Of a stretch of DNA of 64,000 bases, positions 12,246-52,904 are shown in pieces (the first letter of the stretch is position 1; each line of letters starts with the position of its first letter). Position numbers and translations under genes: made by a program. Source of the stretch: Bradyrhizobium zhanjiangense (GTDB lineage Bacteria; Pseudomonadota; Alphaproteobacteria; Rhizobiales; Xanthobacteraceae); the NCBI RefSeq assembly GCF_004114935.1, contig NZ_CP022221.1, positions 372,001-436,000 on the forward strand, in the 5' to 3' direction. A model generated the notes under the pieces. It did not search any database and had not been told where the DNA came from. It saw only the letters and a list, made by a program, of their open reading frames with translations.

Positions 12246-12883
12246 CGCAAAAAGTTCGAGATCAGGGCCAGGCCGAAACGCTGGCTTTTCTCGGGGTGAA
12301 ATTGCGTGCCGATCGCGGTGTCCTTCGCGACGATCGCGGTGACAGGCCCGCCGTAATCGGCGCGCGCCAGCACATCCGCCTCGTTGGCGGGGTTGAGGTG
12401 ATAGGAGTGCACGAAATAGGCGTGCTGGCCCTTAGGGCCAAGCGGCAGCTTGTTCAGCACCGGATGCTCGCGCAAAACCTCCAGCGTATTCCAGCCCATG
12501 TGCGGGATCTTCAGGTTTTCGTCACGCGGCGTGATCTTCTCGACATCGCCGCCGATCCAATTCAGGCCGTCCGTCGTGACATGCTCCTTGCCGCGGCTTG
12601 CCATCAACTGCATGCCGACGCAGATTCCGAAGAAGGGCCGCGCCTTGACGCGCACCGCTTCCGTGATCGCCTCGACCATGCCGTTGACGGCATCAAGTCC
12701 GCGCCGGCAATCGGCGAAAGCGCCGACGCCCGGCAGCACCAGACGGTCGGCGCTGTAGGCCTGGTCCGGATCGCTGGTAACGAACACCTTTTGCGGATTG
12801 TCCAGGCTGCGCGCGGCGCGCTCGAAGGCTTTCGCGGCGGAATGCAGATTGCCGGAACCGTAATCGATGATGGCGACGCTCAT
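12233..12883 (-). CDS. hisH: Imidazole glycerol phosphate synthase, glutamine amidotransferase subunit
   Basis: Glutaminase partner of HisF. The 216-residue class I amidotransferase has its nucleophile in [11 protein letters not shown] and the His-Glu pair in TQFHPEKSQ. It begins [19 protein letters not shown], the family start, with the oxyanion-strand region PGVGAF. The stop lies inside the hisA start region, and its own start overlaps the DUF2628 gene by four bases, so hisB, DUF2628, hisH, hisA, hisF and hisE read as one tightly packed unit. Confidence 0.97.
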
Positions 12884-24714: not shown

Positions 24715-25554
24715 CTATTCTGAGGGCCGGTTGCGCTGGCGATCGGTGTAGAGCTTCATGATCGCCGCGGCGGTTTCCTCGATCGAGCGTCTGGTGACAT
24801 CGAGCAGTGGCCAATCATGCTTGGCGCTGAGCTTGCGTGCGAACGCAACCTCCTCGGTGACCGATTGCTTGTCGGTGTAGGTGTCGCTGCCAGACTCGGC
24901 TCCCATAGAGAGCAGGCGATTCTGACGGATCTGGATCAGCCGTTCCGGCGTCGCATGCAGGCTGACGACCAGCGGACGCGTCAGCGTCTCCAATTGCGAG
25001 GGCACCGGAATGCCCGGAACCAGCGGCACGTTGGCGGTGCGGATGCCGCGATTGGCAAGATAGATCGACGTCGGCGTCTTCGAGGTGCGGGACACACCCA
25101 CCAGCACCACGTCGGCCTCGTCGAGGCCTTCGACATGCTGACCGTCGTCGTGGATCATGGTGTAGTTCAGCGCATCGATGCGCTTGAAATATTCCGCATT
25201 GAGCACGTGCTGGGCGCCGACGCGGCCGGTGGTCGCAGCGCCGAGATACGCTTCGAACAGCTGCATCACCGGGCCGATGATCGACAGGCTCGGAACGTTG
25301 ATCTCCTTGCACTTGTTCTCGAGCCTGAAGACCAGATCCTTCTCCAGCAGCGTGAACAGCACGATTCCCGGCGCCTCCTCGATCTCGTCGAGCACGCGAT
25401 CGAGCTGCTTCTGGCTGCGCACCAGCGGATAGACGTGCTCGACCGGCGTCACGTTGGCGTATTGAGCCGCGACCGCGCGCGCCACGGTGATGAGTGTTTC
25501 ACCGGTGGAGTCGGAGACCAGGTGCAGATGGAAATAGTTGTTCGAGGTCGGCAC
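24715..25554 (-). CDS. ppsR: PEP synthase / pyruvate phosphate dikinase regulatory protein (DUF299)
   Basis: Bifunctional ADP-dependent kinase and Pi-dependent pyrophosphorylase that switches PPDK or PEP synthase off and on. The product has 279 residues from a GTG start ([18 protein letters not shown]). The P-loop [18 protein letters not shown] lies at about residue 153. The family strands [19 protein letters not shown] and [11 protein letters not shown] are clear. This is the gene that borders the Caulobacter origin on one side (RP001/CC0001 type), and here too it is the last leftward gene before the putative origin at 25555-26078. Confidence 0.93.
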
Positions 25555-26078
25555 AAAAACTCTTTGGATTTTGGCGGGGCAGTTTGTGGATTTCTGTGGA
25601 GCTTAACCTCTCGGAAAGAGATGCGCGACACCAGGGACGGGACAACGGCCAATTTTCTTCACACCGCTGCCCGCCAGAACAAGTTTGCCGGCCGGCCGGC
25701 GCGGAAACGGGATTGCGCGGACAAGCCTCTTGATAAGCTGCCGACAGGCGGGCGCAAGCCCCTGAGACCGGGTCACTTATTCCGACCGGCCAGACCGGCG
25801 CAGGAGATGTTGATGGATGTGAACAAGCGCGCGTGAAGTGGCGGACGGAATTGCGTGAGTCCAATCCACGGTCACAAAGACTCAAACCTTAAGATTCTAA
25901 AATTTTTAGGTTTAGAAGAGCCGAGCACGCGGATATGTGTGTGCGCCCAAATCTATGAATGAATTCTTACCGAACACCTTCCATCCACTGTTCGGTGAGC
26001 AGAAAGCGGTTTCGAGCAGAATGGATCCCGGTTCGCGTCGGCAAAGCGGGTCGAAAACAAGAATGGAAGGCTGCCGGC
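25555..26078. other. oriC: Putative chromosomal replication origin (oriC)
   Basis: A 524 bp gene-free stretch between the leftward ppsR and the rightward hemJ. Evidence for an origin: the flanking order dnaQ-coaE-maf-ppsR | hemJ-rho-mnmE-mnmG-rsmG-parA-parB-holA is the conserved alphaproteobacterial origin cluster; transcription diverges from this point; an AT-rich run (25882-25918, with TTCTAAAATTTTTAGG) stands out in a GC-rich setting; and two 9-mers are one mismatch from TTWTNCACA, TTCTTCACA at 25655-25663 and TTGTTCACA (minus strand) at 25818-25826. A third, AAATCCACA (minus, 25585-25593), has two mismatches. No perfect DnaA box was found, as is also the case for weak boxes at the Caulobacter origin. 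The ppsR and hemJ promoters must also lie here. Confidence 0.72.
26001..26060. repeat. Degenerate family E repeat near hemJ
   Basis: AGAAAGCGGTTTCGAGCAGAATGG followed by CCGGTTCGCG and GGGTCGAAAACAAGAAT recalls the repeat at 62072-62136 in order of blocks but with several changes. It ends about 18 bases before the hemJ start, so it forms part of the hemJ leader or promoter region. Confidence 0.4.
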
Positions 26079-26501
26079 ATGTATGAGTGGATCAAGGCGC
26101 TGCACGTGATCGCCGTCATCGCCTGGATGGCGGGCATGCTCTATCTGCCGCGGCTGTTCGTCTATCACTCCGAAGCCGAAATCGGCTCGAAGCAGTCCGA
26201 AACGTTCAAGGTCATGGAACGCCGGCTGCTCAAGGCGATCATCAATCCCGCCATGACGGTCACTTGGCTCGCCGGGCTCTATCTCACCTGGTCCGGCCAT
26301 TGGTTCAGCTCCGGCTGGCTGCACGTAAAACTGGCACTGGTCCTGGCAATGTCCGCGGTCCACGGCTTTTTTTCCCGCTGGCTGAAGGATTTCGCCGCCG
26401 ATCGGCGCCCGCGGACCCAGAAATTCTATCGAATTATCAATGAGGTGCCGACCGTCCTGATGATTTTCATCGTGATCATGGTGATCGTGAAGCCGTTCTA
26501 G
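26079..26501 (+). CDS. hemJ: HemJ-type protoporphyrinogen IX oxidase
   Basis: Integral membrane enzyme oxidising protoporphyrinogen IX to protoporphyrin IX in heme synthesis. The ATG at 26079 (MYEWIKALHVIAVIAWMAG) gives 140 residues with four membrane helices and the conserved His in KALHVIA, plus the MLYLPRLFVYH motif and LLKAIINPAMTVTWL. The longer in-frame start at 25959 would lie in origin and repeat DNA and is rejected. HemJ genes next to rho are typical of alphaproteobacterial origin clusters, but the usual neighbours hemE and hemH are missing here. Confidence 0.93.
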   Translation: MYEWIKALHVIAVIAWMAGMLYLPRLFVYHSEAEIGSKQSETFKVMERRLLKAIINPAMTVTWLAGLYLTWSGHWFSSGWLHVKLALVLAMSAVHGFFSRWLKDFAADRRPRTQKFYRIINEVPTVLMIFIVIMVIVKPF

Positions 26502-26754
26502 GCAAGGCGCGCGACGAATCGCTCAGCGCTTCGGCTTGCGGAGCAGGGAGCGATTTTCTATATTATCGATATCCCACCCAACGCAGGCGGATGTGGTTGT
26601 GTCCGAGCTTTCCAGAGGCCGGACACCGCATCAGGTTTGAAGCCTCATCGGCACTCTCCTTGCCAGACCTGCGGACCTTACCTGCACTGCTCGCGTCCGC
26701 ATTTCAGAGCCACCTCGCACCCCCCCTCCAAGGTTACCCCACAGGACCACCCCA
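26502..26754 (+). promoter_or_regulatory. Leader region of rho
   Basis: A 253 bp gap between hemJ and rho. It contains an AT-rich segment, TTTTCTATATTATCGATATC at about 26554-26573, that stands out and could be a promoter, and then a pyrimidine-rich, C-rich leader of about 150 bases ending in CCACCCCAATG. There is no clear Shine-Dalgarno before the rho ATG. C-rich unstructured leaders are typical Rho loading sites and rho is often autoregulated by premature termination, but this is inference. Confidence 0.4.
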
Positions 26755-29691: not shown

Positions 29692-29773
29692 CGCTAGTTC
29701 TTCATTGTAGGATTAGCGCTTGTTCCATTTCTTGCCTGAAGGGGTCAGGTGAATAGGCTTACGAGTTCCGGTT

Positions 29774-29789
29774 TGTTTCACGTGAAACA
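29774..29789. promoter_or_regulatory. parS: parS site 1
   Basis: TGTTTCACGTGAAACA, a perfect 16-base palindrome identical to the widely conserved chromosomal parS sequence bound by ParB. It lies 83 bases after the mnmE stop and about 3.7 kb from the putative origin. Confidence 0.9.
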
Positions 29790-29870
29790 AATCTGACCCG
29801 TTTCGATCTTGGTCTCTTCGATCTAGGCCCGAAAACAGCGGTGCCGGAATCGAAACCTGGTGCTCAATCT

Positions 29871-29958
29871 CGTCATTGCGAGGAGCCCTTGCGACGAAGC
29901 AATCCAGTCTGCCTCCCGAGAGAAGATGCTGGATTGCTTCGCTGCGCTCGCAATGACG
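29871..29958. repeat. Interspersed palindromic repeat, family A (CGTCATTGCGAG...CAATGACG)
   Basis: About 88 bases with inverted ends CGTCATTGCGAG and CTCGCAATGACG and internal inverted halves GAAGCAATCCAG / CTGGATTGCTTC. Copies at 35030-35117 and 43375-43460 share the same ends and internal CAATCCAGAAT...ATTCTGGATTG. This copy lies between parS sites 1 and 2. Confidence 0.85.
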
Positions 29959-30053
29959 GCGGGGGTGTCGATCTCGCTCAATGCTGAAATACCTAGGCAT
30001 CGAAACATGGCGGGCTTCGCTGTCTACCTCCCATCGATCGGCGCCTTTAATAT

Positions 30054-30069
30054 TGTTTCACGTGAAACA
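30054..30069. promoter_or_regulatory. parS: parS site 2
   Basis: TGTTTCACGTGAAACA, identical to site 1, 280 bases further right and 150 bases before the mnmG start codon. Confidence 0.9.
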
Positions 30070-30144
30070 ACCTCCCTTTCATCCCCTCTTTCAACGCCCT
30101 TTGTACTGTGCATGGGGTTGTTTTTACGAAATCGCTTTTCGCAT

Positions 30145-30160
30145 CGTTTCACGTGAAACG
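30145..30160. promoter_or_regulatory. parS: parS site 3
   Basis: CGTTTCACGTGAAACG, a perfect palindrome with the conserved 14-base core and C/G in place of the outer T/A. It lies 91 bases from site 2 and 59 bases before the mnmG ATG. Confidence 0.85.
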
Positions 30161-30218
30161 TCCGCCTCACCCAGTTTTCCGCTTCCGGCTTTTCCGCCTC
30201 TGAGCTAGAAGTCCGCTC

Positions 30219-32099
30219 ATGCGAACAGAGCGAGAGAGTTTCGACGTCATCGTCATCGGTGGTGGTCACGCCGGCTGTGAAGCCGCGGCTGCTGCTGCGC
30301 GGATGGGTGCAGCGACCGCTCTGGTGACGCACCGTTTCTCCACTGTCGGCGCCATGTCCTGCAACCCCGCCATTGGCGGTCTCGGCAAAGGCCATCTGGT
30401 CCGCGAAGTCGATGCTCTCGATGGTCTGATGGGTCGCGTCGGCGACGCCGGCGGCATTCAATTTCGCGTCCTCAATCGCCGCAAGGGTCCCGCTGTTCGT
30501 GGTCCTCGCGCTCAGGCCGACCGGAAGCTCTATGCGGCCGCGATGCAGGCCGCGATCAGGGAAACCGAGGGTCTTTCCGTCATCGAGGGTGAGGCTGACG
30601 AGCTGATCGTGGTGGAAGGCCGGGTCACCGGTCTGCGCCTGGCTGATGGCCGGCAGCTTCGAGCAGAGGCGATTGTCGTCACCACCGGCACTTTCCTGCG
30701 CGGCCTGATCCATCTCGGTGAGAAGAATTGGCCCGCCGGTCGTGTGGGCGAGGCGCCGGCGATGGGCCTGTCCAGCTCCTTTGAGCGTGCCGGCTTTACC
30801 CTCGGACGGCTGAAGACGGGGACTCCACCCCGTCTGGACGGCACCACGATCGATTGGTCGGCGGTCGAAATGCAGCCCGGAGACGAACCACCGGAGCCGT
30901 TCTCGGTGATGACGGAGCGGATTACGACCCCGCAGATCCAGTGTGGGATCACCCGGACCACCTCGGCGACCCATGAGGTGATCCGGGCCAATGTCCATCG
31001 CTCCCCGATGTATTCCGGTCAGATCAAGAGCTCCGGTCCGCGCTATTGTCCGTCGATCGAGGACAAGATCGTCCGCTTCGGCGACCGCGATGGCCATCAG
31101 ATCTTCCTGGAGCCGGAAGGGCTCGACGATACGACCGTCTATCCCAACGGCATCTCGACCTCGCTTCCCGAAGAGGTCCAGCTCGCGATCCTCGCCAGCA
31201 TTCCAGGCCTGGAACGGGTGAAGATGGTCCGTCCGGGCTATGCCATCGAATACGACCACATCGATCCCCGGGAGCTCGATCCGACCCTCCAGACCAAGCG
31301 TTTGCGCGGTCTGTTCCTGGCAGGGCAGATCAACGGCACCACCGGATACGAGGAGGCCGCCGGGCAGGGCATCGTGGCCGGCCTCAACGCAGCGCTCTCC
31401 GCCAGCGGGGCCGCACTGACCGTGTTCGACCGGGCGGATGGCTATCTCGGTGTGATGATCGATGACCTCGTCACCCGCGGGATCAGCGAGCCCTATCGGA
31501 TGTTCACCTCCCGGGCCGAATACCGGCTGACGCTGCGGGCCGACAACGCGGATCAGCGTCTGACCGAGAAGGGCATCGCCTTGGGGTGTGTCGGCAGTGC
31601 CCGCACGCAGCACCATCGCGCCAAGATGGATGCCCTGAACGCAGCCCGGACGCTCTCGAAGTCGCTCACGATCACCCCGAACGAGGCGATCAAGCACGGC
31701 CTGTCCCTGAACCGCGATGGCCAGCGCCGGTCCGCCTTCGAGCTGATGGCGTATCCCGACATTGGCTGGAGCCAGGTCCGCGCCATCTGGCCGGAGCTGT
31801 CGGCAATCGACCCCGTCATCGCCACCCATCTTGAGATCGACGCCAAATACGACGTCTACCTGGAGCGCCAGAGCGCCGATGTCGAAGCCTTCCGACGCGA
31901 CGAGGGGATGGTGCTGGCTGAGGTCGACTACCAGCGGGTGCCTGGTCTCTCCAATGAGGTGCGGGCCAAGCTGGAAAAGGCCCGGCCGTTCACGGTCGGC
32001 CAGGCCGGCCGGATCGATGGGATGACGCCGGCGGCGCTCGGCATTCTCGCTGCCTATCTGCGGCGCGAGGCCCGGAAGATCTCAAAGGCGATCGCGTAG
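30219..32099 (+). CDS. mnmG: MnmG (GidA), FAD-dependent tRNA modification enzyme
   Basis: Partner of MnmE in cmnm5U34 formation. The 626-residue protein opens [23 protein letters not shown] with the FAD-binding GGGHAGCEA, followed by [18 protein letters not shown] and [20 protein letters not shown]. The conserved [14 protein letters not shown] and [10 protein letters not shown] segments and the C-terminal MnmE-binding helices ([28 protein letters not shown]) are present. Its stop lies one base before the parS-containing start region of rsmG. Confidence 0.97.
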
Positions 32100-32100
32100 G

Positions 32101-32116
32101 CGTTTCACGTGAAACA
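32101..32116. promoter_or_regulatory. parS: parS site 4, overlapping the rsmG start codon
   Basis: CGTTTCACGTGAAACA, with the full 14-base parS core and an asymmetric outer pair. The central GTG of the palindrome (32109-32111) is the only upstream initiation codon available to rsmG, because the frame is closed by the mnmG stop at 32097-32099. Confidence 0.82.
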
Positions 32117-32882
32117 TCGCGGGCCGGGAGGCGGCAGATCGTCATCAAGAAAATCCGCGGCGGGTGAGGGCGCCGGCGGTCGACCCGAGCCGAGGCCGAC
32201 CAGACCGAAGATCGACAAGGCCAGCGCCACCGATCAATCACTGGACGCGGTCATCGCTGCCGACAAGATCGCAGCGCTCAAGCTCGCGCCCGTTTCACAT
32301 GAAACGGAAGACCGGCTCGATCGCTTCATCGCCTTGCTCCGGGAGTGGCAGGCCAAGACCAACCTCGTCGCGCCCTCGACGCTGCCGCACCTTTGGACCC
32401 GGCACATCGCCGACTCGCTTCAGCTCGTGGATCTCGCACCGGCGGCAAAACGCTGGGCCGATCTCGGCAGCGGCGGTGGCTTCCCGGGCGTCGTGCTCGC
32501 CTGCGCCATGGCCGGGACGCCGGATGCCCGCGTCCATCTCGTCGAGCGAATCGCCAAGAAGGCCGCATTCCTGCGCGAGGCGATTCGCGTCACCACATCT
32601 CCAGGGCTCGTACATCTCGCTGAGATCGGGGATAATGTGGATAGAATCACCGGCCCCGTCGATTGCGTCACCGCGCGCGCGTTGGCTCCGCTACATCAAC
32701 TTATCGGCTTTGCGGAGCCGCTGATGCGCCAGGGCGCAAAAGCGTTGTTTCTCAAGGGTCAAGATGTAGAGGCTGAATTGACCGAAGCCGCTAAATATTG
32801 GAATATTCAGACTCAGCTCCATCCAAGCCGCACCGGTGACGGGTGGATCGTGGAACTGACGTCCGTCGAACGGCGCGGGTGA
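32109..32882 (+). CDS. rsmG: RsmG (GidB), 16S rRNA G527 methyltransferase
   Basis: SAM-dependent methyltransferase acting on the 530 loop of 16S rRNA. The longest product (257 residues) starts at the GTG inside parS site 4 and has a basic, low-complexity extension of about 50 residues before the conserved part at about 55 (DKIAALKLAPVSHETEDRLDRF). The domain follows: WQAKTNLVAPSTLPHLWTRH, the SAM motif WADLGSGGGFPGVVLA, and DCVTARALAPLHQL. No other start codon lies before the conserved part, so either the GTG is used or a rarer codon is. The segment PVSHET is encoded by a degenerate parS. Confidence 0.92.
   Translation: MKHRGPGGGRSSSRKSAAGEGAGGRPEPRPTRPKIDKASATDQSLDAVIAADKIAALKLAPVSHETEDRLDRFIALLREWQAKTNLVAPSTLPHLWTRHIADSLQLVDLAPAAKRWADLGSGGGFPGVVLACAMAGTPDARVHLVERIAKKAAFLREAIRVTTSPGLVHLAEIGDNVDRITGPVDCVTARALAPLHQLIGFAEPLMRQGAKALFLKGQDVEAELTEAAKYWNIQTQLHPSRTGDGWIVELTSVERRG
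32291..32306. promoter_or_regulatory. Degenerate parS-like site inside rsmG
   Basis: CGTTTCACATGAAACG differs from the parS core at one central base (CA in place of CG) and encodes the V-S-H-E-T of rsmG. In related RsmG proteins the motif V-S-R-E-T corresponds exactly to an intact GTTTCACGTGAAAC. ParB binding is expected to be reduced, since the central CG is highly conserved. Confidence 0.5.
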
Positions 32883-32914
32883 GGCGTTCAGGGGCCTGAG
32901 TGGGGGAATTTGCG

Positions 32915-33793
32915 ATGAGCGTGATTGACGAGCCGCAGCAAGAACAGACCGCCCAAGAGACCAATGAGGTGACCAATGAGGTGCCCCCTGGCCACCCCCG
33001 CATCCTGGCGCTGGCGAATCAGAAGGGCGGCGTGGGAAAAACAACCACAGCGATCAATCTCGGCACGGCGCTCGCCGCGATCGGCGAACGCGTCCTGATC
33101 GTCGATCTCGACCCCCAGGGCAACGCCTCGACCGGCCTCGGCATCGATCGCCGCAGCCGTTCCTGCTCCACGTATGACGTGCTGGTCGGCGAAGCCGCCC
33201 TGCGCGAGGCGGTGGTCTCGACCGCCGTGCCGCGGCTGCACATCGCGCCCTCGACCATGGATCTCTCCGGCCTCGAGCTCGAACTCGGCACCACGCCCGG
33301 CCGCGCCTTCAAGCTGCGCGACGCCATCGGCGCGCTCAACAACAATGTCTCGCCGGACGCCGACTACACCTATGTGCTGATCGACTGCCCGCCCTCGCTC
33401 AACCTGCTCACGGTGAACGCGATGGCGGCGTCCGATGCGATCCTAGTGCCGTTGCAATGCGAGTTCTTCGCGCTCGAAGGTCTGTCGCAATTGCTGCAGA
33501 CGGTCGAGCAGGTGCGCTCGACGCTCAACCCCAACCTGTCGATCCACGGCATCGTGCTGACCATGTTCGACTCGCGCAACAACCTCTCGAACCAGGTCGT
33601 TGCCGACGTCCGCCAGTTCATGGGCGAGAAAGTCTACAAGACCATGATCCCGCGCAACGTGCGCATCTCGGAAGCGCCGTCCTACGGCAAGCCGGTGCTG
33701 GTCTACGATCTCAAATGCGTCGGCAGCGAAGCGTATTTGCGGCTCGCCACCGAAGTGATCCAGCGCGAGCGCGAGCTGCGCATGACGCATTGA
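32915..33793 (+). CDS. parA: ParA, chromosome-partitioning ATPase
   Basis: ATPase that moves ParB-parS complexes, and so the origin region, toward the cell pole. The ATG at 32915 (preceded by GGGGAA) gives 292 residues; a GTG five codons upstream is less likely. The deviant Walker A is LANQKGGVGKTTTAINLG, followed by VLIVDLDPQGNASTGLG and YVLIDCPPSLNLLTVNAM. The C-terminal MIPRNVRISEAPSYGKPV is characteristic of chromosomal ParA. It lies 32 bases after rsmG and 137 bases before parB. Confidence 0.97.
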   Translation: MSVIDEPQQEQTAQETNEVTNEVPPGHPRILALANQKGGVGKTTTAINLGTALAAIGERVLIVDLDPQGNASTGLGIDRRSRSCSTYDVLVGEAALREAVVSTAVPRLHIAPSTMDLSGLELELGTTPGRAFKLRDAIGALNNNVSPDADYTYVLIDCPPSLNLLTVNAMAASDAILVPLQCEFFALEGLSQLLQTVEQVRSTLNPNLSIHGIVLTMFDSRNNLSNQVVADVRQFMGEKVYKTMIPRNVRISEAPSYGKPVLVYDLKCVGSEAYLRLATEVIQRERELRMTH

Positions 33794-33800
33794 CGCTGCC

Positions 33801-33883
33801 GTAGGGTGGGCAAAGGCGTCTTCGCCGTGCCCACCACCTTCCGTACACACCGCGTGGGCATGCTTCGCTTTGCCCACCCTACG
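33801..33883. repeat. Interspersed repeat, family D (GTAGGGTGGGCAAAG), between parA and parB
   Basis: Inverted ends GTAGGGTGGGCAAAG and CTTTGCCCACCCTAC enclose CGCCGTGCCCACCA and GCGTGGGCATGCTTCG. The element fills nearly the whole parA-parB gap. A longer relative lies at 47191-47358. Confidence 0.8.
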
Positions 33884-33930
33884 AGAATTCAGTTCTGGAG
33901 TGCTGCACCGTGAATCCAAGGGAGCTGGCG

Positions 33931-34815
33931 ATGGCCGACGAAGCGCGTTCGCGACTGGGCCGAGGTCTTGCGAGTCTGATCGGTGATGTCGGCGGCGAGG
34001 CTCAGCATGTCGATCGTCCGCGCGCGCAGCGCAAGGTGCCGATCGAATTCATCAAGGCCAATCCGCGCAATCCGCGCCGTACCTTTTCGGAGGCCGAGCT
34101 CAAGGAGCTCTCCGACTCCATCAAGCAGCACGGCGTGATCCAGCCGATCGTGGTGCGACCGGTGAAGGGCACACAGGACCGCTACGAGATCATCGCCGGC
34201 GAACGGCGCTGGCGCGCTTCGCAAATGGCCGGCCTGCACGAAGTGCCGATCGTGCCGGTCGACATCAGCGATAGCGATGCGCTGGAGTTCGCGATCGTCG
34301 AGAACGTGCAGCGCGAAGACCTCAACCCGATGGAAGAGGCGCAGGGCTATCACGCGCTCGCAAACGAGTTCAAACGCAGCCAGGATGACATCGCAAGAGT
34401 CGTCGGCAAGAGCCGCAGCCACGTCGCCAACATGATGCGGCTGACGAAGCTCCCGGCCGAGGTGCAGGCCTTCATCGCGACCGGCGAGCTGACGGCCGGC
34501 CATGCCCGCGCGCTGATCGGCGTGCCCGATCCGCTCGCAGCCGCCAAGCGCATCGTTGAGGAGGGCCTCAATGTTCGTCAGGCCGAGGCGTTGGCGCATG
34601 AAGAGGGCGTGCCGGAGCGCAAGCCGCAGAAGGCGCGCGCTGGCGCGAAGGAAAAGGACCCCGATACGATCGATCTCGAAAAGCGCGTCAGCGACGCGCT
34701 CGGGCTCAAGGTCACCGTCAATCACCGTGATCCCGGCGGCTCCGTGCAGATCAACTATCGCAACCTCGATCAGCTCGACGAGGTGATGAAGCGGCTGGCG
34801 AAGGGCGGGATTTGA
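33931..34815 (+). CDS. parB: ParB, parS-binding chromosome-partitioning protein
   Basis: CTP-dependent DNA clamp that loads at parS and spreads. The ATG at 33931 (preceded by GGGAG) gives 294 residues starting MADEARSRLGRGLASLIGD, the usual form with the ParA-stimulating arginine region; GTG 33910 is the alternative. The CTP-binding domain shows PNPRNPRRTF-like NPRNPRRTFSEAEL, HGVIQPIVVRP and GERRWRAS; then ENVQREDLNPMEEAQGY and the helix-turn-helix around GKSRSHVANMMRLTKLP. The C-terminal dimer domain follows. Its targets, the parS sites, lie 1.6-4.2 kb to the left. Confidence 0.97.
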   Translation: MADEARSRLGRGLASLIGDVGGEAQHVDRPRAQRKVPIEFIKANPRNPRRTFSEAELKELSDSIKQHGVIQPIVVRPVKGTQDRYEIIAGERRWRASQMAGLHEVPIVPVDISDSDALEFAIVENVQREDLNPMEEAQGYHALANEFKRSQDDIARVVGKSRSHVANMMRLTKLPAEVQAFIATGELTAGHARALIGVPDPLAAAKRIVEEGLNVRQAEALAHEEGVPERKPQKARAGAKEKDPDTIDLEKRVSDALGLKVTVNHRDPGGSVQINYRNLDQLDEVMKRLAKGGI

Positions 34816-52702: not shown

Positions 52703-52787
52703 GACGACCTCCCGATTGTTGTTCTTGAGGTCGATATTTCTGCGCCGGCGGTCCGCAATGGCAATGTTTTTCTTCGGCGCTCCGACC

Positions 52788-52822
52788 AAAAGAAAGGGGC
52801 TCCAACTTGCGCTGGAGCCCCT
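52788..52822 (-). terminator. Intrinsic terminator after the first amtB gene
   Basis: Perfect 10-base stem AGGGGCTCCA / TGGAGCCCCT with an 8-base loop, followed on the minus strand by TTTCTTTT. It is placed about 82 bases after the amtB stop and separates the glnK-amtB unit from the GFA gene. Confidence 0.88.
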
Positions 52823-52904
52823 CAACGGTCGGGGCATTGCCGGGTATGTGCCCAAACCGTAGGTCTGGTCGCGATCCCCGAGGAGATCGCGGCCGGGAGG
52901 AGAG

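Follow-up and report, generated by a model that had tools for sequence, protein, structure and literature searches.

A candidate chromosomal replication origin in the ppsR-hemJ gap of Bradyrhizobium, probably derived from the ppsR-hemE origin of other Alphaproteobacteria

The replication origin of Caulobacter (Cori) was experimentally mapped between hemE and the gene of COG1806, equivalent to DUF299 (PMC1914354), and in Hyphomonas neptunium the marker frequency was reported to peak by hemE, about 7 kb from parAB (PMC6650430). For Bradyrhizobium, our search of open-licence papers returned no experimental origin mapping, and two kinds of prediction are in print. In the skew-based kind, the B. 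japonicum USDA6 paper gives bll0636 and blr0637 as the flanks of the putative USDA110 origin, with a USDA6 counterpart of 82% identity over 391 bp (PMC3927601), and the Bradyrhizobium sp. DOA9 paper follows this placement with genes of 510 and 846 bp and a 385-bp gap (PMC4339197). In these three strains the putative origin is, as at the locus studied here, an intergenic gap; its two flanking genes are described as "conserved hypothetical" and the shift in skew is nearby, and neither DnaA boxes nor an unwinding element are given in the passages on it. From the divergent gene names and the DOA9 gene lengths we infer that bll0636/blr0637 correspond to ppsR/hemJ; the DOA9 sentence, read literally, is at odds with this identification, pairing the 846-bp gene with blr0637 (PMC4339197). 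In the motif-based kind, the DnaA box proposed by Ori-Finder for Bradyrhizobiaceae is TGTTTCACG, and the oriCs that the program predicts for ten genomes of this family adjoin gidA, all with TGTTTCACGTGAAACA (PMC2275245). That motif has also been reported in Oligotropha OM5, served to locate the origin and set the start of a B. diazoefficiens assembly (PMC4840208), and is one of three boxes with which Rhodobacteraceae origins were searched. For strain Lb8, Ori-Finder was used to assign oriC to the shift in skew, which lies at 17 kb in the coordinates of that strain (PMC7020250). According to a passage of a 2026 paper, in which Bradyrhizobium is not named, true origins are missed by some of the annotations in DoriC (PMC13342612).

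The two kinds of prediction conflict, the skew-based one falling at the ppsR-hemJ gap and the motif-based one at parS. A choice between them fixes genome start points and the place where ori/ter ratios are to be read, and would remove a false "DnaA box" from Rhodobacteraceae origin searches. Bradyrhizobium is an important genus of crop symbionts and soil bacteria. We analysed a window of 64,000 nucleotides (372,001-436,000 of a single Bradyrhizobium contig of 9,342,022 bp), and we give a probability of roughly 0.85 to the reading that its ppsR-hemJ gap is the chromosomal origin, descended from the ppsR-hemE (Cori-type) alphaproteobacterial origin with loss of hemE. The location as such has been predicted in print for congeners; new here are the anatomy of the gap, the loss of hemE and an explanation of the conflicting Ori-Finder prediction.

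The first-pass annotation of this DNA had proposed oriC in the same gap, and the gene identities and gene order on which it relied were borne out by Pfam. On one side of the gap the families were RNase_T (dnaQ), CoaE, Maf and Kinase-PPPase (ppsR), and on the other UPF0093 (hemJ), Rho, MnmE, GidA (mnmG), GidB (rsmG), a ParA-type ATPase, ParB and DNA_pol3_delta (holA). The two flanking genes run away from the gap (Table 1). The gap had been called free of credible genes, and the one ORF tested that lies mostly in it, 25499-25885, gave no Pfam match. An Rfam search for a known RNA inside the gap gave no match in the region. The ParABS system does lie within 10 kb, with parS sites from 29774, 3.7 kb past the gap, and parA at 32900, and dnaA lies 194 kb from the gap, at contig 203,838. 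The comparison with the origin neighbourhood of Caulobacter and Rickettsia differed at one flank, the origin there being bordered by hemE and here by hemJ (PMC1914354). With the Caulobacter crescentus Cori and the Rickettsia origin the locus shares a gap beside ppsR/COG1806, an AT-rich stretch, DnaA-box-like sites and a par locus within 10 kb; unlike Cori, it has no hemE flank, and the five TTAA-N7-TTAA CtrA sites described for Cori (PMC1914354) have no counterpart in the window gap, where this motif was found 0 times. The nearness of parAB and an identical parS are shared with Hyphomonas neptunium, in which, by contrast, hemE is present and the origin was experimentally mapped (PMC6650430).

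Table 1. Positions of the proposed origin, its flanking genes and the neighbouring parS cluster (coordinates of the window; conservation among Bradyrhizobium-group gaps).
Feature	Position	Strand	Remarks
ppsR (PF03618)	24715..25554	-	Pfam, E 1.3e-90
ppsR-hemJ gap, proposed oriC	25555..26078	.	contig 397,555-398,078
DnaA-box-like AAATCCACA, 2 mismatches	25585..25593	-	conservation 0.967 vs 0.748 for all 9-mers
DnaA-box-like AGCTCCACA, 2 mismatches from TGATCCACA	25595..25603	-	conservation 0.952
DnaA-box-like TTCTTCACA, 2 mismatches	25655..25663	+	first box of the first-pass annotation; conservation 0.989
DnaA-box-like TTATCAAGA, 2 mismatches	25728..25736	-	conservation 0.923
DnaA-box-like TTGTTCACA, 2 mismatches	25818..25826	-	second box of the first-pass annotation; conservation 0.993
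Possible weak DnaA site CAATCCACG, 3 mismatches	25862..25870	+	largely conserved in relatives
Three GANTC sites (25857, 25879, 25893), CcrM methylation motif	25857..25897	.	all in 41 bp, beside and inside the AT-rich run
AT-rich run (probable site of DNA unwinding)	25874..25918	.	maximum 75% A+T per 40 bp
hemJ (PF03653)	26079..26501	+	Pfam, E 5.1e-60
mnmE-mnmG gap, adjoining gidA/mnmG	29692..30218	.	parS cluster; where an Ori-Finder style prediction would fall
parS, perfect palindrome	29774..29789	.	
parS, perfect palindrome	30054..30069	.	
parS, 2 mismatches	30145..30160	.	
parS, 1 mismatch	32101..32116	.	
parS-like, 3 mismatches	32291..32306	.	
parA (32900-33793) and parB (33910-34815)	32900..34815	+	Pfam

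To compare the locus among relatives, the window's ppsR protein was used to find 139 of them, and the best 80 together with the window made a Bradyrhizobium-group set of 81; 78 of the 80 are titled Bradyrhizobium, and the others "Bradyrhizobiaceae" and "Frankia sp. RB7". The arrangement ppsR, gap, hemJ was found in all 81 loci, with a gap of 414-524 bp whose conserved blocks include TGTGGATTTCTGTGGA, TTTCTTCACA, GGATGTGAACAAGC, AGACTCAAACCTTAAGA and GATATGTGTG. The adjacent hemJ-rho gap (26502-26754) is itself unusually conserved, with 55.7% of its columns at 95% or more in the 81 sequences, and is perhaps a rho leader region. Since only 29.6% of columns reach 95% in the ppsR-hemJ gap, an origin cannot be told by its conservation alone.

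The comparison was extended to the order containing the source genome, which we take to be Hyphomicrobiales. A ppsR match was obtained in 105 of 120 genomes, and upstream DNA was taken from 20 of these, covering 18 other genera and 15 families. All 20 loci had the order ppsR, gap, hemE, hemJ. Perfect parS sites lay 3.8-18 kb from ppsR in all 20 genomes that had both on one contig, and dnaA lay 20-904 kb from ppsR in each of the 14 genomes, among 37 tabulated, with both on one contig. In the window's genome, where the gap is not bordered by hemE, the hemE-family (URO-D) genes are found at contig 7.475 Mb (7,475,326) and 7.109 Mb (7,109,035), with similar scores and neither of them near the origin region. 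Since hemE stands between the gap and hemJ in the loci of the other genera, its absence reads as a derived loss in the Bradyrhizobium group at the same locus; judged from this synteny and the distant hemE-family genes, Bradyrhizobium would have kept the place of the origin and lost the hemE beside it. In Wolbachia the predicted origin is reported to have stayed with hemE (PMC1914354). An origin at hemE by this analogy was considered and rejected, because more than 2 Mb separate the parS cluster from either hemE-family gene.

The first-pass annotation had counted two DnaA boxes with one mismatch each. This did not hold: TTCTTCACA and TTGTTCACA are each two positions off TTATCCACA, and only against the looser consensus TTWTNCACA do they come to a single mismatch. 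Its remark that a perfect box is lacking was right, as no site within one mismatch of TTATCCACA was found in the window gap and none of the 81 Bradyrhizobium-group gaps has a perfect box; even a one-mismatch box is present in only five of them and absent in 76. What the gaps do contain is weaker sites, 3-8 per gap with at most two mismatches throughout the 81. The window gap has four within two mismatches of TTATCCACA against 0.82 expected (P 0.011), and these average 0.968 in conservation compared with 0.748 over the 9-mers of the gap (p 0.0002), an excess which holds when the set is thinned to 79, 44 or 25 sequences, and also under a spacing-preserving shift null (P ≤0.006). Against the specificity of the gap, four such sites per 500 bp also occur at several other places in the 1.23 Mb scanned. 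The gaps of the other genera carry 34 sites within one mismatch of TTATCCACA, spread over 19 of the 20, where 1.27 were expected, and Bradyrhizobium thus appears to have lost the near-consensus boxes of the gap as well. Over the whole 9.34 Mb we counted 6 perfect boxes TTATCCACA and 33 copies of the reversed word; of 61 genomes of the order, counting this one, 47 have fewer perfect boxes than reversed words, 4 have as many and 10 have more. The DnaA of this genome retains GGRDHTTVLHA, which we take to be the box-reading signature of DnaA, and this argues against an altered DnaA box.

The AT-rich run that had been noticed at 25882-25918 was confirmed at 75.7% A+T, and its best 40 bp are equalled in AT-richness by only 0.03% of the 40-bp windows of the 64 kb. 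The three GANTC sites beside and inside the run are kept in 80, 80 and 81 of the 81 Bradyrhizobium-group sequences; by number they are not above what the gap's own composition predicts (3 versus 2.04 expected, P 0.34). Enrichment was seen in the 20 gaps of the other genera, with 73 GANTC sites in 8,555 bp where a Markov model predicts 40.2 (sd 6.1), or 1 per 117 bp, compared with 1 per 517 bp in their flanking DNA (67 in 34,665 bp). In B. diazoefficiens, more than 99% of GANTC sites were reported as methylated in culture, which was assigned to CcrM (PMC4840208). Perfect or one-off TTAA-N7-TTAA sites were found in 10 of the 20 gaps of other genera. Elsewhere, the densest GANTC groups of the 1.23 Mb scanned, with 4 and 5 sites within 41 bp each and about 160 bp apart, were noted at about 12667-12870 of the stretch L128 (contig about 9,336,312-9,336,515).

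On the skew minimum at the gap, which had been put forward as a check, the read-outs disagreed: four of six running minima of word skew fell at 0.371-0.373 Mb, and the signal was broad with the best step fits mostly elsewhere. Raw GC skew, sampled in 100 stretches of 20 kb, gave a clear terminus with a maximum at 5.2-5.3 Mb, roughly opposite the gap; its origin half was flat and smeared, with no minimum at 0.398 Mb, and a two-segment fit preferred about 2.1 Mb, in a low-GC stretch. For the word skew, the far arms (2.9-5.0 and 5.4-7.5 Mb) alone served to train the words, which were then read unbroken over 8.78-0.674 Mb. The running minimum was at 370,681-370,682 for three octamer sets, at 372,666 for 25 heptamers, and at 157,505 (60 heptamers) and 129,160 (hexamers) for the remaining two sets. 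The step fits disagreed with this read-out, the best being at 0.369 Mb in one set and at 0.079-0.129 Mb in the other five. The bootstrap interval was 0.319-0.495 Mb for the top-25 octamers and about 0.05-0.67 Mb for the other sets, bounded by the end of the unbroken data, and in three of the four sets extended with sampled data beyond 0.674 Mb the sums dipped a little further, at 0.65-0.84 Mb. The 38 sites of GGGCAGGG alone were best fitted by a switch at 0.51-0.54 Mb (7 misfits), with 10 misfits at the gap and 14 at dnaA. Predicted gene orientation had its minimum at 9.186 Mb, and the plus-strand bias at 0.204-0.398 Mb (104 to 69) is against an origin at the gap; as evidence for the origin, gene orientation is uninformative to contrary. 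No dif site was found with either of two patterns. Given these mixed read-outs, the skew is compatible with the gap and allows for dnaA as well.

An origin at dnaA (contig 0.204 Mb), the arrangement in many bacteria outside the class, would agree with the two word sets with minima at 129-158 kb, with the five of six step fits at 0.08-0.13 Mb and with the mostly plus orientation of genes at 0.14-0.34 Mb. Just upstream of dnaA, at contig about 202,500-203,125, there is also the densest cluster of boxes with at most two mismatches in the 1.23 Mb scanned (8.78-0.674 Mb; 5 per 500 bp), possibly for dnaA self-regulation, for which boxes at this place are also expected. The published skew shift of Lb8, at 17 kb, may also count on this side (PMC7020250). 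We nevertheless hold dnaA to be an unlikely origin: its distance from ppsR varies widely among the 14 genomes whereas parS stays within 18 kb of ppsR in 20 of 20, four of the six word sets continue falling from dnaA to the gap, GGGCAGGG fits dnaA worse than the gap, and those Alphaproteobacteria whose origin has been mapped have it at hemE (PMC1914354, PMC6650430). The least probable of the alternatives is that the gap is a mere divergent promoter or regulatory region of ppsR and hemJ, with the origin elsewhere. Divergent genes require promoters in the gap, the adjacent hemJ-rho gap is likewise conserved, and promoters, too, contain GANTC and box-like sites. Against this, no sigma-70-like promoter was found in 25400-26200, which is weak evidence in this group, near-consensus DnaA boxes stand at the same position in 19 of the 20 loci of other genera, and it is ppsR that flanks Cori (PMC1914354).

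The remaining alternative places the origin in the mnmE-mnmG gap beside gidA and takes TGTTTCACG for a DnaA box specific to the family, in line with the Ori-Finder oriCs of ten Bradyrhizobiaceae (PMC2275245), the report for Oligotropha OM5 and the B. diazoefficiens origin. This gap is in the same neighbourhood, and since it lies only about 4 kb from the ppsR-hemJ gap, skew is unable to distinguish the two. It is a different gap, however, and its prediction is built on parS half-sites. In a gel shift, the ParB of H. neptunium bound the palindrome TGTTTCACGTGAAACA (PMC6650430), which a review lists as parS (PMC7022226). In the window, five parS-like palindromes occur at 29774-32306 where 0.06 were expected, the first three of them in the mnmE-mnmG gap, and no further parS site with at most two mismatches was found elsewhere in the contig. 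Perfect copies of TGTTTCACGTGAAACA were present in 25 of 41 genomes of the order, and the motif is therefore not family-specific; 23 of these 25 had a ppsR match (a weak one in G009), with both on one contig in 20, at 3.8-18 kb, and not in 3. The exact word TGTTTCACG, on the other hand, was absent from all 101 ppsR-side gaps (81 of the Bradyrhizobium group and 20 of other genera), including the 20 Cori-position gaps in which TTATCCACA-like boxes abound. As the palindrome is parS, lies near ppsR across the order and is accompanied by an unchanged DnaA signature, the Ori-Finder box TGTTTCACG seems, on these sequence comparisons, to be half of a ParB-bound parS palindrome; a literature search returned no paper that calls it a parS mistake in Bradyrhizobiaceae. 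Each of 77 mnmE-mnmG gaps carries 2-6 parS sites with at most two mismatches, and the gap is otherwise poorly conserved, with 6.1% of columns at 95%, apart from a few short blocks. Taken together, we regard an origin in the mnmE-mnmG gap as very improbable, though not quite as improbable as the promoter-only explanation. Between the parS sites of the window an inverted-repeat, REP-like element was observed at 29871-29958, with perfect arms at 29871-29882/29947-29958 and 29895-29907/29929-29941; these arms are present in 32 of the 77 gaps, the window included.

The reading of the ppsR-hemJ gap as the origin is supported by the synteny in 20 of 20 and 81 of 81 loci, by the conserved box-like sites, by the AT-rich run and by parS about 4 kb away. 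In such an origin, DnaA-ATP would assemble on a set of weak, spaced boxes (25585-25870), and this assembly would melt the AT-rich run at 25874-25918 and then load the helicase. The three GANTC sites would turn hemimethylated on passage of the fork and may help to time re-use of the origin, and ParB, acting at parS sites some 4-7 kb from the gap, would then move the duplicated origin. Only tentatively do we suggest that the Bradyrhizobium origin, having lost its strong DnaA boxes, initiates by cooperative DnaA assembly at weak conserved sites together with CcrM methylation at the unwinding element. If true, this mode of initiation could suit slow-growing cells and bacteroids, and the weak-box gap offers a ready test of how far an origin may drift from the DnaA consensus. 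Apart from the origin region, the window gave an Rfam match to the Bradyrhizobiaceae sRNA BjrC68 at 52787-52868 on the minus strand, with a score of 97.4 bits.
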